NCBI RefSeq assembly: GCF_900115125.1
Contig: NZ_FOVJ01000001.1
Span: 777,852 to 841,851 of the forward strand
DNA length: 64,000 nt
Origin: Nitrosospira briensis
GTDB lineage: Bacteria; Pseudomonadota; Gammaproteobacteria; Burkholderiales; Nitrosomonadaceae
Direction of reading: 5' to 3'
Shown: in pieces, positions 1,489-36,798 of the stretch
Layout of the letters: each line of letters opens with the position of its first letter
How positions within the stretch are numbered: position 1 is the first letter of the stretch
Notes under the pieces: model-generated
The model's input: the letters and a program-made list of their open reading frames with translations, nothing else
Databases searched by the model: none
What the model was told of the DNA's origin: nothing
Translations under genes and position numbers: made by a program

Positions 1489-3465
1489 TCAGAGTTCAGC
1501 TTCTGGTTGCGGCCAGATCGAAAGGCCGCTCTTGCCGAAAGGAGTATGAATAGCCCTCGCAGTGACAGCTTGCCTTGATGGATACGGGTCCGCCTGCTGC
1601 GGCAATTCGACCTGGTTGTCTCGTTCTCCGGCGCTATAGAGAAAACCGCCCGACTGGTGCCGCCAAAGCGACGCATACTGCCCGCCAAGTTCCAGCAACT
1701 CGTCATGTGTGCCTTGCTCGACGATCTGTCCGTCCTTCAGCACGAGCAACCGGTCCAGGCAAGCGATGGTGGATAGCCGGTGCGCGATTGCGATCACCGT
1801 CTTGCCTTCCATCAACCCGATCAACTGGTCCTGAATCGCAAGCTCCACTTCGCTATCAAGTGCGGAGGTTGCCTCATCCAATATGAGGATCGGCGCATTC
1901 TTGAGCACTACGCGGGCGATTGCAATACGCTGCCTCTGGCCGCCGCTGAGCTTCACGCCCCGTTCTCCCACCTGCGCGTCATATCCGGTGCGTCCTTGCC
2001 AGTCCGTCTGGCCCAGAATGAACTCATGCGCCTGTGCCCGGCGTGCAGCCGCTTCAATCTGTGCCCGGGTCGCCCCTGGGCTGCCATAAGCAATATTCTC
2101 GGCAATGGAACGATGCAGCAGGGATGTATCCTGCGCAACGACGCCGATGGAACGGCGCAGGCTTTCCTGAGTCACTTCACGAATATCCTGCCCATCGATC
2201 CGGATACTGCCTGCCTCGATCTCGTGAAAGCGCAGCAACAAGTTGATCAACGTGGACTTGCCGGCCCCCGAACTCCCGATCAACCCGACGCGTTCGCCTG
2301 GCCGGATGACGCAATTGAGGTTATCCAGTATCTTGCGGCCATCATTCCGGCCAAACGTAAAAGTCAATCTCTCAAAACGTATTTCGCCTCGTACTTCACC
2401 GGGGTCCAGAGTTTGCGCGGCGGGTTTATCGGCGGACGTATTTGTCACGGCCACCGTTTGCATGCCTTCCTGCACCACGCCCATGTTTTCAAAAGCCCTG
2501 ATCAGTTCCCAGCTTACCCATCCGGCTGCATTTGCGATTGTCCAGGCAAGCGGCACCGCCATCGCCACGGCCCCTGCGTCAAGTGTTCCCTGCGACCACA
2601 GCATGATGCCTATAGCGGTTGTGCCCGCCAGCAGAAGCGCATTCAGCAGCGACAACGTGGTCGTGAATTTCGTAATCATGCGCATATGGGCGGCGATAGC
2701 GGTCGTATGGGTATCAATCGCTTCGCGCACGTATGCGTCCTCATCGCTGGCGCGCGAGAACAGTTTGACGGTGAGGATGTTGGTGTAGCTGTCTACCACC
2801 CGGCCCATTACCGCCGAGCGCTGCTCGCTGCTGCTTTTGGCAAGATCACGCATGCGCGGAACGAAGTACCGCAGGAAAAATATATATCCGATAAACCATA
2901 AGCCTGTTGGTACCGCCAGCCGCCAGTCCGCCTCGCTCATCAGCCATAGTGATGAAACGCCGAATACGGCAATGTACCAGATGGCATGAATGCTTGAAAC
3001 GACGCACTCGCGCACGGCGTCGCCCATATGCATCACGCGATTTGCGATGCGTCCGGCAAAATCGTTCTGGAAGAGTGACCAGCTCTGACGCACGACATGC
3101 CAATGGCTTTGCCAGCGAATCATGCTTGTCACCCCCGGCACGACAGCGTTATGGCGTACAAGGCTGTCAATCAGGACAGCCAGAGGCCTGGCAACAAGCA
3201 CCAGCAGGGCCATGCCGGTCAGCATCGGCGCTGCATCCTGCAATGCGGCAACACGCGCCGTCGCCTCCATAACCTCGACAAGACGGCCGATGAAAACGGG
3301 AATCAGGGTATCAATAAGCGCTACCGCCAGGCCGGTGGCAAATAACGCCCCGTACAGGCCCTTGGTCTGGCTGATGAAGTGCCAGTAAAACGCGGTTAAA
3401 CCTGGGGGAGGCGATTTTTTGGGAACGACAGTGGGCCGAACGCACTGCTCAAAGAAAGCAAACAT
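1489..3465 (-). CDS. ABC transporter, fused membrane and ATPase domains (exporter type)
   Basis: A 658-residue half-transporter of the MsbA/multidrug-exporter type that should work as a homodimer in the inner membrane. The N-terminal ~330 residues form a six-helix type-1 exporter domain. The ATPase domain shows Walker A (GSSGAGKST), the signature LSGGQRQRIAIAR, Walker B ILILDEATSALD and the H-loop IAHRLSTI. About 55 residues after the ATPase domain are hydrophilic and not family-typical. ATG 3465 follows GAGG with 7-nt spacing; the upstream TTG-type start at 3516 has no such site. The substrate (lipid or drug) is unknown. Confidence 0.92.
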   Translation of the reverse strand: MFAFFEQCVRPTVVPKKSPPPGLTAFYWHFISQTKGLYGALFATGLAVALIDTLIPVFIGRLVEVMEATARVAALQDAAPMLTGMALLVLVARPLAVLIDSLVRHNAVVPGVTSMIRWQSHWHVVRQSWSLFQNDFAGRIANRVMHMGDAVRECVVSSIHAIWYIAVFGVSSLWLMSEADWRLAVPTGLWFIGYIFFLRYFVPRMRDLAKSSSEQRSAVMGRVVDSYTNILTVKLFSRASDEDAYVREAIDTHTTAIAAHMRMITKFTTTLSLLNALLLAGTTAIGIMLWSQGTLDAGAVAMAVPLAWTIANAAGWVSWELIRAFENMGVVQEGMQTVAVTNTSADKPAAQTLDPGEVRGEIRFERLTFTFGRNDGRKILDNLNCVIRPGERVGLIGSSGAGKSTLINLLLRFHEIEAGSIRIDGQDIREVTQESLRRSIGVVAQDTSLLHRSIAENIAYGSPGATRAQIEAAARRAQAHEFILGQTDWQGRTGYDAQVGERGVKLSGGQRQRIAIARVVLKNAPILILDEATSALDSEVELAIQDQLIGLMEGKTVIAIAHRLSTIACLDRLLVLKDGQIVEQGTHDELLELGGQYASLWRHQSGGFLYSAGERDNQVELPQQADPYPSRQAVTARAIHTPFGKSGLSIWPQPEAEL

Positions 3466-3806
3466 GGTAAAACCTCGAGTGGAAAAAGCGGATGGAGTGT
3501 GTCTGCATCGATACAAGAGCGCAGGGGATTTCGTTTTTCATGGGTTGTGAACGGCGAACAAGATAACGCAAGGCATGATCAGGCAATTAATGGAATTCAA
3601 GCACGTTTCCATTCCTGTTCCTGCATTGCAATTTTTTTCCCGGATCCAACTCTTGTCCGGCTGATCCCATAACCGGCCCCCCGCCTCGCCAAGGGTTGCG
3701 CATTGTCGCGCGCCACCGCCCGTATGCGGCCTATCGCACAGATGGAACAAGCACAAAGAGGAAGAATGAGGGGAACGTTATCTTACTTTTGTGTGAGGAG
3801 GACGCC

Positions 3807-3887
3807 ATGAATAGCATTCTCTCCTGGGTTGCCTACATAGTGATACTTGTCGCGGGCTTGGGAGTCTTGGGAATAAGTTCTATATGA
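3807..3887 (+). CDS. Small 26-residue single-pass membrane protein
   Basis: ATG 3807 follows GAGGAGG (3795-3801) at 5-nt spacing, one of the best ribosome sites in the window. The product, MNSILSWVAYIVILVAGLGVL plus a short tail, is almost entirely one transmembrane helix with no charged residue. Such peptides often assist membrane complexes or act as stress proteins, but no function can be assigned. It stands alone between the ABC exporter and a membrane protein on the other strand; no gene is seen in 3888-4174. Confidence rests on the ribosome site and the helix. Confidence 0.5.
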   Translation: MNSILSWVAYIVILVAGLGVLGISSI

Positions 3888-4174
3888 GGTTCGGGCAACA
3901 AGACCCGCACGACAATCCATGAGATCAGGAGGGGTATGGCTGTGGGAGAAAGCTAGCCCGGCCTCCTGTTGACGACGCACTGGAGCCGCAGCATATCGTC
4001 CACCAGGTGGTGCCCCGTCCAACCACCGCTACAGGCGGAAACCGGCGATATCCCCGTCGTGTGAACGTTGCCATGGCGCCTCAGGATGCCATTACGCCCC
4101 CTACCGGAATCGATCCCCGCACATGCCTTTAACTTTTCACTCGCAAGCAGCACAAGCGGCGGAAGAGAGCGAAA

Positions 4175-4702
4175 TTATGTGCGACTGCGACGAGCTTTTG
4201 CGATATCAGCCAGGTCTCTTGCGGCAAGCCCCGCTGCGAGCGTAAAAAAAATCACCGCCATGGATTTTCCTGAAAGGCGCTTTTCGAACCCGGGCGTGAA
4301 GCGTTTGGGAATAGCGTGGTAGTCGATGACATAAGCGGCTGCCGCTACAGCGGCGCCTCGGCATAAGGGGCTCATCACTTGGGGCGGATTGGCCGCGCCC
4401 AGGCTCGAAACTCTCCCTTCGCGTCGCCCATCGCCACGTCCGGCAGCCAGTTTTTCATAGAACGACGCCCAGAAGATCGCGGACCCGTGGTTTAGCAAAA
4501 AACCGGTAAGTGTGTATTTCACTGAAGCCAGGTCCTGTTTTGCCGCTTCATCGCCCCAGATAATGTGACTCGTCGCATTCAACGGCGCTGCATAGGAGCC
4601 GCTCTCGCGCTTGCCCGCCAGCGAAGCAACAGCCGCTGTTGCCAGGCCGCTTATTGTTCCGGACTTTACAGCCCGGCTCAGAACGCTTCGTTCCTTGTCC
4701 AT
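4175..4702 (-). CDS. Conserved hypothetical membrane protein
   Basis: A 175-residue protein of a family I recognise only as conserved and uncharacterised in proteobacteria. It begins with a small-residue-rich segment (SGTISGLATAAVASLAG), then a stretch around NATSHIIWGDEAA, and has hydrophobic helices near residues 60-80, 115-130 and 150-165. The order suggests three or four membrane segments. ATG 4702 follows GAGGAG in a proper ribosome site. It is probably monocistronic: the next minus-strand gene (GH1-RmlD) ends 220 bp upstream. Confidence 0.75.
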   Translation of the reverse strand: MDKERSVLSRAVKSGTISGLATAAVASLAGKRESGSYAAPLNATSHIIWGDEAAKQDLASVKYTLTGFLLNHGSAIFWASFYEKLAAGRGDGRREGRVSSLGAANPPQVMSPLCRGAAVAAAAYVIDYHAIPKRFTPGFEKRLSGKSMAVIFFTLAAGLAARDLADIAKARRSRT

Positions 4703-27718: not shown

Positions 27719-28585
27719 TCAGCCGCTGATCCCTGTCACCGCCGCTATGGCCTTGACCCCCATGCCAGTCGCCACGACCGCCGCAAGAATGGCAAACGCT
27801 TTTTGCAATCCCGGACCCGTGAAGTGATCGCCAAACCAGCCTGCTGCCAGCATTGCTGTCAGCGCACCCCCTGCAAAGGGCAGAGCAATCGACCAATTCA
27901 TGCTTCCGGTCAATGCCGCTGTAAAAGCACCAGCCCCGGACACCAGCGCAATGACCGCGAGGGAAGTGGGCACGATGGCCCGCATGTGAAGAAGGGTAGC
28001 TTTTTGAAGTGCGGGCACAATGATGAAGCCACCTCCCACTCCGAGCATGCCGGAGAGAAAGCCGGCCGCAATCCCGGAGAGCGCGAGCAATCTCGCGCAG
28101 CGAGCGTCCCAGATCAGACGCCCGCTGAAATCGTCGAGTTGGCACGGCGTGGCGGCCGAGGATGCGGTTGGAGCTTTCGCATAATGATTTCCCGACCGTC
28201 TAAACATTTTGATTGCGATATAGCCGAGCACCACGGCGAACAGGAGTCTCAAGGCCGCGTCGGGCATCTGCCGGGCGACGTATATCCCCAGCGGCGAGGT
28301 CAAGGCACCGGTTAACGCTATGAAGCCAGCGGCCCTGTACCTTACCTTCCCCTTTTTCAGCGCCAGCAGTGTGCCAAGGGCGGCGGAAACACTGACGGCA
28401 AGCAGCGCGACGGGCGCGGCCTCCGTCAGCGGCAATTGCAATCCGAAAACAAGCAGCGGAACGGCGATGATGGCGCCGCCTGCTCCGGTCAGCCCGAGTA
28501 TCACGCCGACCAGGGCGCCAAAAAGTGCGGCGACTATTAACACTGTCACCGTACTCAGGTGATGCTGCCCGGGCGTGCAAGCCAT
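27719..28585 (-). CDS. TauE/SafE-family sulfite/sulfonate exporter
   Basis: A ~288-residue integral membrane protein with two repeats of the family motif, LGLTGAGGAIIAVPLL near the start and LGVGGGFIIVPAL in the second half, and about eight membrane helices. The family exports sulfite, thiosulfate or organosulfonates. Two starts are possible: ATG 28585 after GAAGGG, overlapping the sqr end by 31 bp, or GTG 28549 just behind the sqr stop. It is the last gene of the fmdB-pdo-sqr-tauE operon and probably removes the sulfite formed there. Confidence 0.88.
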   Translation of the reverse strand: MACTPGQHHLSTVTVLIVAALFGALVGVILGLTGAGGAIIAVPLLVFGLQLPLTEAAPVALLAVSVSAALGTLLALKKGKVRYRAAGFIALTGALTSPLGIYVARQMPDAALRLLFAVVLGYIAIKMFRRSGNHYAKAPTASSAATPCQLDDFSGRLIWDARCARLLALSGIAAGFLSGMLGVGGGFIIVPALQKATLLHMRAIVPTSLAVIALVSGAGAFTAALTGSMNWSIALPFAGGALTAMLAAGWFGDHFTGPGLQKAFAILAAVVATGMGVKAIAAVTGISG

Positions 28586-29838
28586 TCGCGGCCCTTCAGG
28601 AAGCCGTGCCAGTAAAACCACGGCAGGAACTTTGCCTTGAGCAGCCACGCCAGGTAACGCGGAACGGTCGGATCGAGCCGGAAAGTCGGTAGCAATTTGC
28701 CACCAAACCCGAACTCCGCAAGAATGACCTTGCCCTTTTCGACCGTGAGCGGACATGAGCCATACCCGTCATAGAGCGTTGCCGGGTCCCTTCCTTCCCC
28801 GACAGCCAGGAGATTTTCCGCGACCACGACAATCTGCTTCCTGACGGCAGCGGCGGTCTTCGCATTAGGGGCGGAACACACATCTCCGAGAGAAAAGATG
28901 TTCGCATAGCGGAGGTGCCGCAGCGTCCTGTGGTCGACCTCACACCATCCGGCGGCATCCGCCAATAGGCTTTTACGCACAAAACTCGGTGCCGCCTGGG
29001 GTGGCGAAACGTGCAGCATGTCGAAGGACTTTTCCACCCGTTCGATGCTTCCGTCGGGCTGGCGGATATCAAACCAGGCGACCCTGTTTGGTCCGTCTAC
29101 CTTGACGAGATTGGAGTTGAATACGAGATTTGCGTTATAGCGCTTCACGTACTCCATTAATGGCGGAACGAAGGCTGCCACGCCGAACAGCACGGGCGCC
29201 GCACTGTTGAACTCGACACTGATGTTGTCGAGCATCCCTTTCCGCAACCAATGGTCGCATGACAGGTACATTGCCTTCTGCGGGGCGCCCGCGCACTTGA
29301 TCGGCATGGGCGGCTGGGTGAAAATGGCCTTCCCGTCCTTGAGCCCCTTTACCAGCGACCAGGTATACGAGGCCAGATCAAAAAGATAATTGGAGGTTAC
29401 GCCATTTTCCCCGAGCGTATCCTCCAGCCCCTCGATCTGTTCCCACGCAAGGCGCAGGCCAGGGCACACCACGAGTTGCCTGTAGCCGATAGAACGGCCG
29501 TCTGTCAGATGAACAAGATTCGAGTCCGGATCAAAACCGTTCGCAACGGCCTGGATCCAGGTGGCCTTGGGTGGAATGACGCTGGCCATGGGTTGCACGG
29601 TTTTTGCCACGTCATAAGCGCCTCCTCCCACAAGTGTCCAGGCGGGCTGATAATAATGCCTGTCATTGGGCTCGACGATTGCTATGCGCAGGGAGGGCTG
29701 ACGCCGAAGCAGGCTCGCTGTGACCCCTATGCCTGCCGCGCCTCCTCCGATCACGACGACATCAAAGTGTCCGCTCCAGTTGCATGCGGCGTCGATCGGA
29801 ACTGCGAGTGTTTCGTTGTTTCGGGTACGCTGGTTCAT
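28555..29838 (-). CDS. sqr: Sulfide:quinone oxidoreductase (SQOR type)
   Basis: A 427-residue flavoprotein. The FAD motif is VVVIGGGAAGIG (31-36 core). Two redox cysteines sit in family-typical contexts: C182 in PIKCAGAPQKAMYLSC and C321 in SLGDVCSAPNAKTAAAV. This is the mitochondrial-type SQR signature. A C-terminal amphipathic segment (FLPWFYWHGFLKG) fits monotopic membrane binding. The enzyme oxidises sulfide, passes electrons to quinone and yields persulfide or polysulfide. ATG 29838 follows AAGGAGA. It sits 65 bp after the persulfide dioxygenase and overlaps tauE. Confidence 0.9.
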   Translation of the reverse strand: MNQRTRNNETLAVPIDAACNWSGHFDVVVIGGGAAGIGVTASLLRRQPSLRIAIVEPNDRHYYQPAWTLVGGGAYDVAKTVQPMASVIPPKATWIQAVANGFDPDSNLVHLTDGRSIGYRQLVVCPGLRLAWEQIEGLEDTLGENGVTSNYLFDLASYTWSLVKGLKDGKAIFTQPPMPIKCAGAPQKAMYLSCDHWLRKGMLDNISVEFNSAAPVLFGVAAFVPPLMEYVKRYNANLVFNSNLVKVDGPNRVAWFDIRQPDGSIERVEKSFDMLHVSPPQAAPSFVRKSLLADAAGWCEVDHRTLRHLRYANIFSLGDVCSAPNAKTAAAVRKQIVVVAENLLAVGEGRDPATLYDGYGSCPLTVEKGKVILAEFGFGGKLLPTFRLDPTVPRYLAWLLKAKFLPWFYWHGFLKGREWLARPGSIT

Positions 29839-29903
29839 TTTTCGTTCTCCTTCTTTCATTGTTCCTGCTCGGCCCGCACCCGCGATCATCGCTCTCCAGC
29901 GTT

Positions 29904-30764
29904 TCAGATCACATTCAGTGGTATTTTCAGGTATGAAATCCCGTTATCTTCGGGAGGAGGCATTTGCCCGGCGCGCACGTTCACCTGAATCGACGGAAGC
30001 AGGAGATTGGGCATGTCGAGCGAGGCGTCCCGCGCTTGCCGCATGGCTACGTACTGGTCTTCGCCGATGCCATCTTGCACATGGATATTATGAGCGCGCT
30101 GTTCGCCGACTGTAGTCTCCCATCGGGTGGAGCGGGTTGCGGGAGCATAGTCATGACACAGGAATAGACGCGTTTCCACTGGGTAGGCCAGAAGCCTGCG
30201 TATCGACTGGAACAGGCGGCGGGCATCCCCCCCGGGGAAATCAGCGCGCGCAGTGCCGAGATCGGGCATGAAAAGCGTATCGCCCACAAAAATTGCATCG
30301 TCTATCTGATAAGACAGGTCCGCCGCGGTGTGGCCCGGCGTCAAGATCGCCATCGCGGTCATCCTGCCGATACTGAATGTTTCACCGTCGGCAAAGAGAT
30401 GATCGAAGTGACCGCCATCCGGCGTAAAGTCCGGTCCCAGATTGAAAATCTTTTTGAAAGTCTTCTGAACCTCGGGAATCTCCTTTCCGATAGCCGTTCT
30501 GCCGCCCAGCTTGTTCTTGAGATAGTCCGCGGAGGTGAGGTGATCGGCGTGCGCATGCGTCTCGAGTATCCATTCCGTCTTCAGTCGTTTTTCGCTGATG
30601 AAGGCGATTATTCTGTCTGCTGATGCCATGCGTGTCCTGCCTGATTTCGAGTCGTAATCCAGCACCGGGTCGATAATCGCGCAGCTGCCACCAGGTTCGT
30701 CGTAAATGACGTAACTCACCGTCCATGTGTACGGGTCGAAGAATGCCTCGATATTTGGTTTCAT
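29904..30764 (-). CDS. ETHE1/Blh-like persulfide dioxygenase
   Basis: A 286-residue MBL-fold protein. Metal-binding motif ETHAHADH supplies H70, H72, D74 and H75; LTPGHTAADLSY, GDTLFMPDLGTARADFPGG and LFLCHDYAP complete the ETHE1/Blh pattern. It should oxidise glutathione persulfide to sulfite with non-heme iron. Codons upstream of 30764 continue the frame but lie over the fmdB region; ATG 30764 follows GAAGG. It is cotranscribed with fmdB (29 bp upstream) and sqr. Confidence 0.9.
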   Translation of the reverse strand: MKPNIEAFFDPYTWTVSYVIYDEPGGSCAIIDPVLDYDSKSGRTRMASADRIIAFISEKRLKTEWILETHAHADHLTSADYLKNKLGGRTAIGKEIPEVQKTFKKIFNLGPDFTPDGGHFDHLFADGETFSIGRMTAMAILTPGHTAADLSYQIDDAIFVGDTLFMPDLGTARADFPGGDARRLFQSIRRLLAYPVETRLFLCHDYAPATRSTRWETTVGEQRAHNIHVQDGIGEDQYVAMRQARDASLDMPNLLLPSIQVNVRAGQMPPPEDNGISYLKIPLNVI

Positions 30765-30793: not shown

Positions 30794-31036
30794 TTAAGCC
30801 TGCCCACACCCACACCCTGGTCCGTGCCGATGTTTTGCCAGTTCGGCTTTTGGCTGAAGCGAACGCATTGCTTGATCCCGCCCTCGCGCCATTTCCCCAT
30901 GCATGGCAGGAACAGAAAGAATCAATTTTTCTGTCGAGCTTCCGCATGCCAGGCAATCCGGATTAGGCGTGTGGATTGAATGGCGTACTTCAAATTGAAG
31001 TTTGCACTCCGTACACAAGTAGTCGTAAGTCGGCAT
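30794..31036 (-). CDS. FmdB-family zinc-ribbon protein
   Basis: An 80-residue protein with the FmdB zinc ribbon, MPTYDYLCTECKLQFEV, CxxC at 8-11, then CLACGSSTEKL as the second knuckle. The C-terminus ends in a Cys/His/Gly tail (RHGPGCGCGQA), possibly a metal ligand. FmdB proteins are small putative regulators. ATG 31036 follows GGGA. It heads the sulfur operon fmdB-pdo-sqr-tauE. Confidence 0.88.
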   Translation of the reverse strand: MPTYDYLCTECKLQFEVRHSIHTPNPDCLACGSSTEKLILSVPAMHGEMARGRDQAMRSLQPKAELAKHRHGPGCGCGQA

Positions 31037-31117: not shown

Positions 31118-31771
31118 TTAGCTCCAGCGCGCCGGTTGTTTCCCCTGGATCCCGAATTGTGCCGAGGTGACGTCGGTCCTGGCCCGCTTCTCGCCATCTC
31201 TTGTCGGCGCTCTCAACCGACGCGTCTCGACTTCCCAAACCCAACCGCTGATGACTACATCCTTCGGAATGAGCGGATGATTTTTAAATGCTTCTATTGT
31301 CCTCATGCAGGTTTCATCCACGTCATCCATCATTCCGATCCACTTTGCAAAAGCGCCCTTCTCCAGCTTCAATTCGGGCAATGTGGGATCCATTGGAATC
31401 ATGTCGGTGTCGATCCCTTTGTCACGCAACATTTTCTCCAGATCAGTAGCGTTCGCAGACAGCATGCCGCATTGCGTATGCTGCACGATGACGATTTCCG
31501 TCGTCCCGAAAAAATTACAAGTCAGCATTGCCGAGCGGATTGCGTCGTCCGTGACAATTCCTCCGGCATTACGGAAGCAATGCGCATCTCCACCACCTAC
31601 CGGACTGTCTACACGGATACCAAGCGCTTCATCTACCGGCAGACGTTCATCCATACAGGCAAGTACCCACAGCTTCCGGTTATTATGTCCGTCCGGTCCA
31701 TGACGGCGACGTTGTGCCCAGAAATCGTATGCTTCGACGCGTGTGCTCAGCTCCTCTTGGAGAGTTTTCAA
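31118..31771 (-). CDS. Beta-carbonic anhydrase family protein (candidate COS hydrolase)
   Basis: A 217-residue zinc enzyme. Zinc ligands are C39, H98 and C101 (CMDERL and QHTQCG) with the D41-R43 dyad intact. The DERLPVDEALGI and GDAHCFRNAGG segments are the short form of the family that includes carbonyl-sulfide hydrolase; by itself the sequence does not exclude plain CO2 hydration. The sulfur context makes COS hydrolysis worth testing. The start is TTG 31771, 8 nt after GAGGAG. A sigma54-type promoter lies 130 bp upstream, and the divergent gene encodes a sigma54 activator. Confidence 0.88.
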   Translation of the reverse strand: MKTLQEELSTRVEAYDFWAQRRRHGPDGHNNRKLWVLACMDERLPVDEALGIRVDSPVGGGDAHCFRNAGGIVTDDAIRSAMLTCNFFGTTEIVIVQHTQCGMLSANATDLEKMLRDKGIDTDMIPMDPTLPELKLEKGAFAKWIGMMDDVDETCMRTIEAFKNHPLIPKDVVISGWVWEVETRRLRAPTRDGEKRARTDVTSAQFGIQGKQPARWS

Positions 31772-31900
31772 TTTTGAGTCTCCTCGTTAATTGTTTTCAA
31801 TTTAACAACATCCCTAAAGTGAACTACTTTTTCCGGTAGAACTGAAGGGAATTCATAAACGGATATTTAACCCGCACATCGGCGATGCAATAGTACTGCA

Positions 31901-31916
31901 TGCAAATCCCATGCCA
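31901..31916 (-). promoter_or_regulatory. Sigma54 (-24/-12) promoter for the carbonic anhydrase gene
   Basis: On the minus strand the sequence reads TGGCATGGGATTTGCA, matching TGGCACG-N4-TTGCA with one base different and GG-N10-GC spacing exact. Transcription should start near 31890, giving a ~120-nt leader before the TTG at 31771. Confidence 0.8.
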
Positions 31917-31979
31917 GGAAGAACAGAAATAAAAATGCCTTATTTTCAAGCATCTAGCTTTTCATTCTTGTCATCGTAG

Positions 31980-32014
31980 TGAAGCTGTGCTTCAATCAGT
32001 GAAGTTCAACTTCA
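31980..32014. promoter_or_regulatory. Two tandem 15-bp activator-binding palindromes
   Basis: TGAAGCTGTGCTTCA (31980-31994) and TGAAGTTCAACTTCA (32000-32014) share arms TGAAG and CTTCA. Their start-to-start distance is exactly 20 bp, two helical turns. They lie about 97 and 117 bp upstream of the predicted sigma54 transcript start, the usual place for enhancer-binding proteins, and directly before the activator gene. Confidence 0.82.
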
Positions 32015-32031
32015 TACGTAGGCCACAATTC

Positions 32032-33591
32032 ATGAATGACAATCCTCTTTCTGAGTTAACCCCGGATTTTTTTCTGCAAACCTTTATTCTCGAGTTGATG
32101 CATGCGAGCGAACAACAGGGACAAAAACATTGCGAACAGTTGATTGAGCATATAGCCCAAACCGCAGGATGCTTTTTTGAAGAAACTTATCGGGAAAATA
32201 CTCAAAGAAATGAACAACTCGATAATGAAAGCTATACCGAGCTCATCCTCGGCATCAAGAACAATATCGGTGGAAAATTTTCACTGGTTTCCAGTAATCA
32301 GGATTGCATTACCGTTACCAATTCGCGCTGTCCCTTTGGCGAACAGGTTACCAACTTTCCCGAATTATGCAGAATGACTTCCAGCGTATTCGGAGGCATC
32401 GCAGCCAGAAACTTTGGCTATGCCAAAGTTGACATCAAAAAAAGCATAGCTCGCAAGGATGGCAAATGTGATGTATGTATTTACACCAACCCACAGGCAG
32501 CAAAAGGGCAGCGGGGAATGGAATATACCGATACGACGCCGGTCAAGGAAATTAACGATGCCAAGGAGTTGCAGTGTCGAATTGAAACAAGCATGCAAAG
32601 GCTTTGGCAGAAACAGAACAAAAAAATATCGGAGAAGCATCAGCCCCCTGCAATCATCGCAAAATCGCCAATGATGCAGAAAATACTGCAATCAATCGAG
32701 GTTATTGCACCCACTTCGGCAACAGTACTGATTCAGGGCCAAACAGGTGCAGGTAAAGAGTTGATAGCACGCGCCATACATGCGATGAGCGATCGCTCCC
32801 ATAAACCATTCATCGCAATTAATTGTGGCGCAATTCCGGAAAGCCTGATTGAAAGCACGCTGTTTGGACATGAAAAAGGCGCTTTTACAGGAGCCATAGA
32901 AGTACACCAGGGCTATTTCGAGCGGGCGGAAGGCGGTACATTGTTTCTGGATGAAGTCGATTCATTGTCGCCGGCAGCACAAACCAGGTTGCTTCGTGTA
33001 ATCCAGGAAGGAGAATTGGAGAGAGTTGGCGGCAAACAAACATTGGCGGTTGATGTAAGAATCATCTCGGCAACAAATCAAAACCTGGAAGATCTTGTCA
33101 AGCAGGATCGATTTCGCAACGACCTGTACTATCGCATCAATGTAGTCCGTTTAAGTATTCCTCCTCTGGCCGAACGGCCGGAAGATTTGCCTTATCTCGT
33201 GCAATTGATCATGCAGCGCTTGAATAAGCGGTATAACAAGCAGGTCGAATCAGTAAGCCGCGAAGTCATGAAGAAAATCCGGGCTTATCACTGGCCGGGT
33301 AATGTTCGTGAACTGGAAAACATCCTTGAGCGCAGCATCCTGTTTGTCACCGGAAAAGAAATGACTGAACTGGATTTAGAGCTCCCGGCTAAAGCAAAAA
33401 ACAGGGGTGAATGGAAAGACGAAAAAGAACAGGCTCTTACCAAAATTGAAAAATCCTTCCTTGAAACCGCTTTGAAAGAAAACTCCGGAAATATAAAGAG
33501 AGTCTCTGAAAACATGGGAATCACGTCACGCGCGGTTTACGCCAAGCTAAAAAAACACAAAATCGAGTTGGCGGATTTTCGGGTTTCTTGA
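32032..33591 (+). CDS. Sigma54-dependent activator with V4R/MOD1-like sensor domain
   Basis: A 519-residue enhancer-binding protein. Residues ~1-160 are a sensory domain whose end (FGGIAARNFGYAKV) resembles the methanogen-output/V4R fold. Four cysteines, C100, C113, C146 and C149 (CPFG, KCDVC), could bind metal. The AAA domain has Walker A GQTGAGKE (~236-243), the sigma54-contact loop GAFTGA (~283-288) and Walker B LFLDE. A Fis-type HTH ends the protein. ATG 32032 has only a weak ribosome site; a GTG at 31987 is possible. It is divergent from the carbonic anhydrase, with palindromes between. Confidence 0.9.
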   Translation: MNDNPLSELTPDFFLQTFILELMHASEQQGQKHCEQLIEHIAQTAGCFFEETYRENTQRNEQLDNESYTELILGIKNNIGGKFSLVSSNQDCITVTNSRCPFGEQVTNFPELCRMTSSVFGGIAARNFGYAKVDIKKSIARKDGKCDVCIYTNPQAAKGQRGMEYTDTTPVKEINDAKELQCRIETSMQRLWQKQNKKISEKHQPPAIIAKSPMMQKILQSIEVIAPTSATVLIQGQTGAGKELIARAIHAMSDRSHKPFIAINCGAIPESLIESTLFGHEKGAFTGAIEVHQGYFERAEGGTLFLDEVDSLSPAAQTRLLRVIQEGELERVGGKQTLAVDVRIISATNQNLEDLVKQDRFRNDLYYRINVVRLSIPPLAERPEDLPYLVQLIMQRLNKRYNKQVESVSREVMKKIRAYHWPGNVRELENILERSILFVTGKEMTELDLELPAKAKNRGEWKDEKEQALTKIEKSFLETALKENSGNIKRVSENMGITSRAVYAKLKKHKIELADFRVS

Positions 33592-33788: not shown

Positions 33789-34543
33789 TCATTTTCGGAT
33801 TTTGTACCCTGTTTTCAGCATTCGCAATGTCCACCACGATACTGCCAGGAAACATGCCATCAGAGTCCCAAGGCTGAGGTAGGGTGAAACATCCGAGGCG
33901 CGAAAGAAGCCGTAGCGAAACCCGTCTACCATGTAGAAAAACGGATTCAGATACGATAATCCCTGCCAAAGTGGAGGCAACGACGGGATCGTATAGAAAA
34001 CCCCCGATAAAAACGTCAGTGGCAGGACGATAAAGTTTTGCAACGCAGCAAGCTGCTCGATTTTTTTTGCCCAGATTCCGCAATGATGCCTAAGGCGACC
34101 AGCAACGCGGTGCTCATCAAGGCAAATGCGAATACCCATGCGAACGAGTACAGGGGAAGTTCAAAAAACCCCAGGGTCACCACGTAAATACCCAGTCCTA
34201 CCACGAGACCGCGAACGACCGATGCCAGTACATAGGCAGTGAATATTTCCTGGTAAGAAAGCGGCGATAACAGCATGAAGATGTGATTGCCCGAGACCGT
34301 CGATTGAATCAGGCTTGATGAGGAGTTGGCGAAAGCGTTCTGCAACATGGCCATTATCACCAGTCCCGGAATTAGAAAAACGGTGTAGGTTACACCGGGA
34401 TATGGCCTGACCCGTTCTTCCAGAGCGTGAGAAAAAATCAACAGATAGAGCAAGGTGGACAGCATGGGCGCAAATACGGTCTGGCACCCAACTTTCCAGA
34501 ACCGTAGCAGTTCCTTGTAGAGCAGTGTAAGAAATCCATTCAT
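33789..34543 (-). pseudogene. Frameshifted ABC-2 permease (YadH-like)
   Basis: The first part (frame from ATG 34543) reads a YadH/NodJ-type permease to GIIAESG. The family sequence then continues in another frame as IWAKKIEQLAALQNFIVLPL, then PFFYMVDGFRYGFF, to the stop at 33789. The shift falls near 34077-34081, next to a run of eight T. Together they make about 250 residues, the full family length with six helices. ATG 34543 overlaps the ATPase stop in an ATGA junction, showing former translational coupling. No functional product is expected unless this is a sequencing error. Confidence 0.85.
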
Positions 34544-35130
34544 ACCGATGCAGATTCCAGACTCTCTGCATCGTGCATGATCTTTACGAACACTTCTTCC
34601 AGATCAGGTTGCAATATCTGCAGTTCCAGGACTTGAGTCTGGGTTGTGCGTAATGTTGCAATCACATTTTCCAGCTGGGAGTATTCCTTGATTGCCAGAA
34701 CCTAGCAGCCCTGATCGTGGCTGATTGCCAGTACCTGTAACGCCGCCGGCAGCGTATCGGGAGATAACCGCAGTCGTATCCGGTGTCCGGAAATGTTGCC
34801 GACGAGATTTCTGACGCTATCGAGCACAACGATACTGCCATTTTTGAGCATCGCCACGCGGTCGCATAAAGCCTCTGCTTCTTCCAGATAATGCGTAGTG
34901 AGCACAATGGTATGACCGGTGCGGTTTAACTGCTTGATGAAGCGCCACAGGGCCTGCCGCAATTCCACATCTACACCTGTGGTGGGTTCATCCAAAACGA
35001 TTACCGGGGGTTTGTGGACCAATGCCTGCTCTACCAGTACGCGCCGCTTCAGCCGCCGGACAACAAACGCATGTTGGTATCGGCCTTGGCGGCAAGGTCG
35101 AGATGGTGGATTATCTCGTCTATCCAGCTG
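34540..35130 (-). pseudogene. Truncated, twice-broken ABC-2 ATPase
   Basis: Reading the minus strand, homology starts at WIDEIIHHLDLAAKADTNM and the signature LLSGG. A one-base loss near 35050 shifts frame before KRRVLVEQALVHKP. The frame then gives IVLDEPTTGVDVELR (Walker B), TTHYLEEAEALCDR (H-loop) and runs into an in-frame TAG at 34702-34704. Past it, sequence of the family type continues (LEEVFVKIMHD) to 34540. The N-terminal third, including Walker A, is missing at a junction near 35130. The gene is dead. Confidence 0.85.
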
Positions 35131-35397: not shown

Positions 35398-35832
35398 ATG
35401 AAGAAATCAAACCAGATCAGCCGTTCCTCCTGTCCAGTCAGTTGCGCTCTGGACATATTGGGCGACAAATGGACGCTGCTTGTCGTTCGTGATCTCATTT
35501 TCTTCCGTAAGCGATACTTCGGGGATTTTCAAAATTCCCCGGAAAAAATCGCGACTAATATCCTTTCTGATCGCCTGAAAAAGCTGGAGGAATGCCACCT
35601 CCTTTTTCGACGCCCCGATCCCGCTAATGCGCGCAAGATTATTTATATGCCTACTGAAAAATGCGTCGATCTGGCGCCTCCAATCATGGAGCTGGTACGT
35701 TGGGGTGCAAAGTATGTTCCTGAAAGTGACAAGCACGAGAATCTGATTCAAGGATTCGAACGGGATCCGGTGCAATTCATGGTGGAAATACGATTATCTC
35801 TACGTAAAGAGAATGAAGCGAATAAAGAATAG
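35398..35832 (+). CDS. HxlR-family transcriptional regulator
   Basis: A 144-residue winged-helix protein. The HxlR signature is clear: CPVSCALDILGDKWTLLVVRDL, then FGDFQNSPEKIATNILSDRL, KKLEECHLLFRR and YMPTEKCVDLAPPIMEL. C12 and C16 sit at the position used for redox or aldehyde sensing in some members. It is followed by a glutathione S-transferase gene, so it probably controls electrophile or oxidative stress response. AT-richer than the flanking genes. The ribosome site before ATG 35398 is weak. Confidence 0.9.
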   Translation: MKKSNQISRSSCPVSCALDILGDKWTLLVVRDLIFFRKRYFGDFQNSPEKIATNILSDRLKKLEECHLLFRRPDPANARKIIYMPTEKCVDLAPPIMELVRWGAKYVPESDKHENLIQGFERDPVQFMVEIRLSLRKENEANKE

Positions 35833-35920
35833 CGAAATTAGACGATGCAAAAGGAAATCAAGGCTGTGAGATAGATGAAAGTCAATTTTTAACTCAACTT
35901 TTATTGGATTGCCTCTGGCA

Positions 35921-35957
35921 TTACTACCGGGGGCACGTCAGTACGCCCCCCTAGTAA
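35921..35957. terminator. Hairpin between hxlR and GST
   Basis: TTACTA (35921-35926) pairs with TAGTAA (35952-35957), continuing as GGGGGC (35929-35934) with GCCCCC (35945-35950) across a small bulge. No T-run follows. It may end the hxlR transcript or attenuate entry into the GST gene. Confidence 0.5.
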
Positions 35958-36000
35958 GGGACCTACTTAACATTAAACTGCTATGCAAAAGGAATTCTCC

Positions 36001-36798
36001 ATGTCCAATCAATCAAATGTCGAGCGTACGCTGTACGGATTCTGGCTCTCACCTTATATGAGTCAGGTCGCACACATGCTCTCGGAAACCGGTCTACCTT
36101 ATCGTTATGAACGAGTGTCTCCCTTTCAGGGGAGCACGCTCACGCCAGAGCATATGGAACGAAATCCTCTTGGGAAAATCCCTACTCTCACAGATGTCAA
36201 CGGTGTGGATGTTTCAGAAAGTCACGCGATCTGTCGTTATCTCGCGAGAATCTATCCAGAAGCACGAAAGTTTTATCCTGTTGATGATCCGATGCTCTGT
36301 GCAGAGGTCGATGCCAAGAATGACTTCATCACTTTCTCCATTGCGGGTCCATTCTTTAACTGGTTTGTTGTCAGCGCATATTTTCCAAAAGCATGGAAAC
36401 TGAAAATCGAAAAAGAAGGGCATATCTATAATCTTTGCTCTGTTCTGTTAAGCAAAATGTGGCTACCCAGATTGGTTAATGGCTCGAAAATGGCGCCGTT
36501 CCTGCTTGGCAAAGAGCCTTTTTTGCCGGATTTCCAGTTGTTCTATACGCTCGAGCTTAGCCAAATGTTTTCCGAACTGTTCGAAATACCCGAGATGCAT
36601 CTGTTTCGAGACGATCCCGCATTACAGACGTTTTATGATGCAATGTGCGAGCGTCCTTCTACCCGTGAAATACTGGCGGCCAAAGAATCGGAACTGGATG
36701 TTACGAAGAAGGAACTCTTCGGGGGGTTTGGGGCAGCTTATCTTAATAAGCATATCGACAGAAAAATCCTTGGAGGGATATTCGGGCGTGAAGTCTGA
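36001..36798 (+). CDS. Glutathione S-transferase
   Basis: A 265-residue protein. The thioredoxin-like half has LYGFWLSPYMSQVAHML, the glutathione-contacting NPLGKIPTL and the conserved ESHAICRYLAR. The all-helical half follows, with a longer C-terminus than usual (LFGGFGAAYLNKHIDRK). It should conjugate glutathione to an electrophile or reduce a peroxide in the cytosol. ATG 36001 follows AAGGA at good spacing; the ATG at 35983 contains that site. The stop overlaps the start of a recombinase remnant. Confidence 0.88.
   Translation: MSNQSNVERTLYGFWLSPYMSQVAHMLSETGLPYRYERVSPFQGSTLTPEHMERNPLGKIPTLTDVNGVDVSESHAICRYLARIYPEARKFYPVDDPMLCAEVDAKNDFITFSIAGPFFNWFVVSAYFPKAWKLKIEKEGHIYNLCSVLLSKMWLPRLVNGSKMAPFLLGKEPFLPDFQLFYTLELSQMFSELFEIPEMHLFRDDPALQTFYDAMCERPSTREILAAKESELDVTKKELFGGFGAAYLNKHIDRKILGGIFGREV

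Follow-up and report, generated by a model that had tools for sequence, protein, structure and literature searches.

The enzymes most similar to the one considered here are clade-D beta-carbonic anhydrases, namely the carbon disulfide (CS2) hydrolases of Acidianus A1-3 (Protein Data Bank entries 3ten and 3teo) and Acidithiobacillus thiooxidans, and the carbonyl sulfide (COS) hydrolase of Thiobacillus thioparus THI115 (3vqj). According to PMC8209446, clade D holds both CS2 and COS hydrolase activities, and the CS2 hydrolases as well as the THI115 enzyme show negligible or no CO2 hydration. A putative carbon disulfide hydrolase gene has been noted in one Thioalkalivibrio. No dedicated sigma54 activator is described for the Acidianus and A. 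thiooxidans enzymes in the literature covered. On the regulatory side the nearest relatives are the phenol-sensing one-component sigma54 activators DmpR, MopR, PoxR and CapR. Here we analyse a stretch of 64,000 nucleotides from Nitrosospira briensis (contig NZ_FOVJ01000001.1, positions 777,852 to 841,851; hereafter the window), belonging to a genome of 3.23 Mb, in which the gene of a CS2-hydrolase-like carbonic anhydrase homologue (CA) is divergent from the gene of a sigma54 activator. The arrangement had been pointed out in an earlier note; that observation is confirmed, its interpretation as a sigma54 switch is supported, and sigma54 dependence stands as a prediction from sequence. An inducible module for hydrolysis of CS2/COS, under the control of its own sigma54 activator, is in our view the likely explanation. 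Among the matches listed in literature searches joining CS2/COS hydrolase, carbonic anhydrase, sigma54 and ammonia oxidizers, where subscription papers are mostly uncovered, such a switch is undescribed, and the paper mentioning CS2 hydrolase activity in clade D contains no occurrence of Nitrosomonas, nitrif-, "ammonia oxid-" or sigma.

The CA gene occupies positions 31118..31771 on the minus strand and starts with TTG, preceded by a GAGGAG ribosome site. In front of it, at 31916-31901 of the same strand, lies the predicted sigma54 -24/-12 promoter TGGCATGGGATTTGCA with the exact GG-N10-GC spacing that had been reported; the window has no second exact match to TGGCAYRNNNNTTGCW. Judging from the -12 element, transcription is expected to start near 31890, and rpoN has one match in the same genome. 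Conservation of this promoter was estimated in 80 loci, which are the best 80 of 110 relatives and were chosen by CA. A MetOD1-AAA+-Fis activator was found near CA in 73 of them (stricter clustering gives 72; 73 is used here), being divergent in 29, downstream on the same strand in 40, upstream on the same strand in 3 and otherwise placed in 1, mostly at a distance of about 0.5 kb or less, with up to 2.5 kb in L138 and more in L179. When up to 420 bp in front of CA were scanned with approximate, self-made weights, the best -24/-12 score reached 12 bits or more in 72 of the 80 loci and in 3.5% of 2000 random windows; these windows were taken from the same loci, and some may contain true sites. 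The site was present in 72 of 73 loci with the activator and in none of the 7 without it (Fisher p 2.5e-9); after dereplication at 90% CA identity the corresponding values were 32/33 and 0/3. Absence of the promoter from relatives having this gene pair had been named in advance as grounds for rejecting the switch, and 72 of 73 such loci carry it; a chance promoter match was set aside because the site is conserved across homologous loci. Of the seven loci lacking the activator, one is from an actinobacterium, Pseudonocardia asaccharolytica, several come from short contigs, and L156 and L180 score 11.8-11.9 bits, just under the cut. The Pseudonocardia locus (L144), where no activator or zinc ribbon was found, ends about 400 bp past the CA gene.

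The two 15-bp palindromes, described as 20 bp apart and about 100 bp upstream of the predicted start, were found at 31980-31994 (TGAAGCTGTGCTTCA, predicted enhancer site 1) and 32000-32014 (TGAAGTTCAACTTCA, predicted enhancer site 2), with centres about 97 and 117 bp upstream of the expected start and outer ends 78 and 98 bp, respectively, from TGG of the promoter. They are the only TGAAG-N5-CTTCA sites in the window, where 0.08 are expected and none of 100 shuffles reached two. The genome contains one exact occurrence of the composite pattern of palindrome, N5 and half-site; at two mismatches there are 12 further matches, versus 6 for a reversed-pattern control. In 26 of the 29 divergent loci (at most one mismatch in the better copy and two in the other) the pair lies 98-99 and 78-79 bp from TGG, which is the register of the window. 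In seven loci (L129-L135) the distance from promoter to CA is about 290 bp instead of about 145 bp, and the operator-promoter spacing is unchanged there. For GAAG-N5-CTTC pairs, analysed in the 72 loci whose promoter scores 12 bits or more, a gap of 20 gave z 39 versus 19 for the next best gap in the 29 divergent loci and z 32.6 versus 17.9 in the 43 loci of other gene order, 35 of which were individually significant (p < 0.05). The block-shuffle null used for these estimates is crude, every spacing scoring above it, so that the other spacings are the real control.

One could imagine that the palindromes only autorepress the activator, since site 2 ends 17 bp before its ATG, and that the CA gene is served by another promoter. 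This explanation was set aside and deserves hardly any credit: loci whose leaders are unequal by about 145 bp keep the same 98-99/78-79 bp spacing, the tandem sites are also found when the activator is downstream of CA rather than divergent, and the search for sigma70-like promoters gave only weak matches (2 versus 1.5 in shuffles).

The activator itself (32032 (ATG)..33591, plus strand) combines a MetOD1 sensor (approximately residues 18-150), an AAA+ domain with GAFTGA and a Fis-type helix-turn-helix. It matched the profiles MetOD1 (PF18546, 52.8 bits at a cut-off of 23.8), Sigma54_activat (PF00158) and HTH_8, with Walker A at residue 236 and GAFTGA at residue 283. Its AAA+ part matches CapR and others, and like DmpR, MopR, PoxR and CapR it is a one-component activator; the differences are the sensor, which according to Pfam is MetOD1 rather than V4R, and the target, a CS2-hydrolase-like gene. 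Of the "V4R/MOD1-like" domain suggested earlier, only the MetOD1 half can be retained, as V4R gave no match at E <= 0.01; a sequence search of solved structures produced no match of the sensor itself to the phenol-sensing activators. The four cysteines once counted there reduce to three invariant ones (C100, C113 and C146 in 77/77 aligned rows), C149 being Cys in 50 of 77; the alignment was limited to open reading frames of 480-580 amino acids (aa), and holds the window protein, those of 70 among the 73 loci and six of the eight paralogues described below. According to PMC5847659, a cluster of three conserved Cys is common to MetOD1, the V4R sensors of PoxR and MopR, and ATC hydrolase, and MetOD1 resembles the heme-NO-binding domain. 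A structural model of the sensor (predicted local distance difference test score 78, fold alignment of 41 sequences) had TRAPP/Bet3 and H-NOX proteins as most of its top matches, with some de novo designs among them; these matches are weak (one at E <= 0.001, TM about 0.3-0.5), and phenol sensors are absent among the 50 listed. Zinc- or thiolate-based sensing of a small thio-volatile by the MetOD1 domain is plausible.

The enzyme has Pro_CA at 36.5 bits and, among solved structures, matches the Acidianus CS2 hydrolase 3ten best (E 5.5e-49), with the COS hydrolase 3vqj at E 4.1e-17. The beta-carbonic anhydrase zinc-ligand pattern C-x-D-x-R...H-x-x-C is present in 80/80 loci, and H97, C100 and a Phe-Phe motif in all 81 aligned rows (80 loci and the window). 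This motif is described as characteristic of CS2 hydrolase in PMC6382920; the same position is Leu-Leu in 3vqj. In a midpoint-rooted tree of 45 rows, selected to cover the spread of sequences, 3ten fell on the same side as the window enzyme (100/99 support); the opposite side held the COS hydrolase (a partial row), Rv1284 and four further rows. The earlier note had proposed a COS or CS2 hydrolase and a comparison with the Thiobacillus COS hydrolase clade. Of the two, CS2 hydrolase is favoured by the closest solved relative, the Phe-Phe motif and the tree, and a THI115-type COS hydrolase, with its weaker E-value and its place on the side opposite to 3ten, was set aside. The likeness to the Acidianus enzyme (clade D, zinc site, Phe-Phe) is not complete: the insertion [VA]-D-[TSK]-P-x-G-x-G, found in all 80 homologues, is missing from the archaeal protein. 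The octameric CS2 hydrolase of A. thiooxidans S1p is reported to have a similar insertion, TPAGGG. Two homologues of 57-60% identity (L203 and L204) have no insertion, and neither activator nor zinc ribbon nearby.

Both activities in one clade leave room for an enzyme that is chiefly a COS hydrolase, for which COS from breakdown of thiocyanate or organosulfur compounds would be signal and substrate and CS2 incidental. The hosts include Thiohalobacter thiocyanaticus, a thiocyanate user judging by its name, which fits this idea; the enzyme, however, is closer to CS2 hydrolase and has Phe-Phe in place of Leu-Leu, and we regard a primary COS function as improbable. Still less probable, and in fact very unlikely, is an ordinary carbonic anhydrase whose role is to provide CO2 or bicarbonate under an activator that senses carbon or nitrogen status. 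The beta-carbonic anhydrase family and the retained zinc ligands agree with it, and hosts of the module include autotrophs. The same genome, however, encodes a second beta-carbonic anhydrase with 113 bits on the Pfam profile versus 37 for the module enzyme, which is therefore not the sole carbonic anhydrase there, and this was the reason for setting an ordinary one aside. The absence of appreciable CO2 activity in the clade-D hydrolases and the patchy distribution, in 40 of 199 relatives and 14 of 369 genomes drawn from the class, also speak against it.

Among the same 199 relatives the N-terminal domain of the activator was registered in 45 genomes, including 37 of the 40 enzyme carriers (in G163 only as a 34% match on another contig); no activator match was obtained for the remaining three (G018, G040 and G154), and of the 159 relatives without the enzyme 8 have the domain. 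Many nitrifiers, methane oxidizers and sulfur bacteria have enzyme, ribbon and predicted switch together; hosts of the 80 loci include Nitrosomonas, Nitrosovibrio, Nitrosospira, Methylobacter, Methylomonas, Methylomicrobium, Sulfuricella, Thiobacillus, Thiocapsa and Thiohalobacter, many being metagenome-assembled genomes. The class draw gave 13 stretches from 12 genomes, the genome under study and G024 being excluded. All nine homologues with at least 63% identity had both the activator and an FmdB-type zinc ribbon, and neither was present with the remaining four, of which two have 57-60% and two no more than 33% identity; two of the nine (L194 and L196) were already among the 80 loci as L178 and L141, leaving seven new ones. 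Sequence distances of CA correlate with those of activator and ribbon (Mantel r 0.56 and 0.78, respectively, p 0.001, 58 dereplicated rows). A second actinobacterial homologue, on a Mycobacterium paragordonae plasmid (L208), has neither partner annotated within 8 kb.

The zinc ribbon, overlooked in the earlier note along with the breadth of the module, stands directly behind the CA gene in the window (30794..31036, minus strand; 80 aa, H-x-HGPGCGC tail; PF09723, 45.7 bits, and TIGR02605) and was found at the downstream end of CA in 76 of 80 loci, with four Cys invariant in 77/77 rows. It shares the CxxC...CxxC ribbon of the FmdB family (Zn_ribbon_8) and differs in a conserved PAxHGxMAxGR middle, a metal-ligand-rich HGPGCxC tail and its tie to the CS2-hydrolase-like enzyme. 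On a 349 kb plasmid of Methylobacter sp. YRD-M1 (L207), where insertion sequence elements lie on both sides of the module, CA is followed by the zinc ribbon, a ZIP metal transporter and the sigma54 regulator in this order, which fits a role of the ribbon in zinc supply; L138 and L139 also have ZIP behind CA. Probably the ribbon is a zinc or folding helper.

Further on the minus strand of the window follow a persulfide-dioxygenase-like (PDO) metallo-hydrolase (29904..30764; PF00753, and NF040641 with 398.8 bits, below its cut-off of 625), a sulfide:quinone reductase-like (SQR) flavoprotein (28555..29889; best NCBIfam model NF049943, type III SQR, 166 bits, below the cut-off of 525) and a TauE/SafE-type exporter, possibly for sulfite, with an uncertain start (27719..28756; PF01925, 145 bits). 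From CA to TauE the genes are separated by short gaps or overlap, so that the phrase "next to a sulfide operon" says too little: ribbon, PDO-like, SQR-like and TauE genes share the strand behind CA. This composition is not general. SQR was matched in 13 of the 80 loci (one at only 24% identity), TauE in 10 and PDO in 6, not always on the CA strand, and sulfide genes as a common core of the module were set aside on these counts.

Paralogues of the activator bear on the nature of the signal. In seven genomes having the activator without a CA match (L078-L084) it is divergent from a DUF938-SDR-DUF1326-PpoB2 operon, assigned by Pfam in L080 only and by resemblance of reading frames in the other six. 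DUF938 is methyltransferase-like and PpoB2 belongs to a copper-chaperone family; a literature search on DUF1326/DUF2182 gave no paper. A second activator copy in G070 (L087) faces a MEDS-domain gene, and in G167, which has the domain and no CA, the domain forms a protein of its own, encoded ahead of a kinase-like gene (L085). All eight paralogue promoters contain a sigma54-type site and a tandem pair at -96/-97 from GAAG (p <= 0.008 each). Operator and layout are thus, as far as sequence comparison tells, common to the family and serve more than a single output, which speaks for a signal broader than CS2 or for a set of closely related signals. On this basis one can suppose that the activator senses copper limitation, sulfide or thiols generally and that CS2 hydrolysis is one of several outputs, the paralogues driving copper-chaperone-type or MEDS ones. 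Such a scheme overlaps with a CS2/COS-hydrolysis module and differs from it in the signal, not in the enzyme. The common operator of the CA-less paralogues and the three invariant Cys speak for it; constancy of the zinc ribbon and activator as neighbours in the 80 loci chosen by CA and the single place of the operator in the genome under study speak against it, and we consider it possible, if rather unlikely.

The module preferred here, inducible hydrolysis of CS2/COS under its own activator, has to be weighed against several observations. The promoter motif is weak by itself: with up to one mismatch it has 4 matches in the window versus 2.7 expected, which is not beyond chance, and its strength therefore comes from conservation. 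The counted loci share descent and are not independent, and phylogenetic dependence remains after dereplication. One locus with the activator (L165) scores only 10.2 bits for the promoter. Eight of the 43 non-divergent loci have no significant tandem pair (L128, L149, L157, L158, L166, L168, L174 and L179; L166 has two sites 21 bp apart), a clear palindrome is absent from the divergent loci L160 and L175, and L172 is weak. In the enzyme tree 3ten and the outgroups are on long branches and several rows are only partial. Within the genus only 7 of 23 genomes searched have the enzyme, and the CA carriers G018 and G040, for which no activator was matched, are close relatives. Rarity of SQR, PDO and TauE makes the sulfide branch a local feature, and close activator paralogues face operons without a CS2-hydrolase-like enzyme, so the signal may exceed CS2.

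Other genes in the vicinity are mentioned for completeness. At 33789-35022 (minus strand) an ABC-transporter-like permease and ATPase are represented by overlapping pieces in different frames, and the gene pair may therefore be broken or contain a sequencing error; an HxlR-type regulator and then a glutathione S-transferase-like gene lie at 35398-36798. The host we take to be an ammonia oxidizer by its genus. A search with PF04896, which gave matches in 27 of 61 genomes, found six partial AmoC matches in this one (C6, C13, C16, C17, C18 and C20), some at contig ends, suggesting multi-copy amo operons collapsed in the assembly; a search of the same genome with PF02461 gave no match, and its controls also gave none. 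In another genome (L063, about 3400-4220; G017:C42:12947-13666) an amoC gene lies about 1 kb past the end of the activator gene.

Gene linkage, promoter, operator and family assignments can be read from the sequence directly, and for the mechanism behind them we infer the following scheme. The MetOD1 activator would sit upstream of the -24/-12 promoter on the pair of GAAG-N5-CTTC palindromes, which are spaced by two helical turns; its sensor domain would bind a thio-volatile (CS2, COS or a close derivative), after which the AAA+ domain would remodel and open sigma54-RNA polymerase. The transcript would span the genes of the CS2-hydrolase-like enzyme and zinc ribbon and, in this genus, those of PDO, SQR and TauE. 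The enzyme would convert CS2 to COS and further to CO2 and H2S, and in this genus SQR and PDO would oxidize the sulfide and TauE export the product. CS2 is known to inhibit ammonia oxidation and is a classical inhibitor of ammonia monooxygenase, which was reportedly the subject of Hyman, Kim and Arp in 1990. The benefit of the module in ammonia oxidizers is probably protection of ammonia monooxygenase from CS2; in sulfur oxidizers the module may be catabolic. A broader idea, which we find tentative and somewhat short of probable, is that MetOD1 activators constitute a dedicated sensor family for small thio-volatiles disabling copper monooxygenases and provide inducible self-protection in ammonia oxidizers and methanotrophs, with one branch controlling CS2 hydrolase together with sulfide disposal and a paralogous branch, using the same operator, a copper-chaperone-type operon; this would amount to an inducible resistance system against one class of nitrification inhibitors. 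The provisional MetOD1 domain gains a concrete candidate input, and the compact set of promoter, operator and activator is testable as a thio-volatile reporter. If the proposed function is true, nitrifiers and methanotrophs would possess a specific inducible defence against CS2, and the turnover of CS2 and COS in soil would partly be a trait of nitrifiers.

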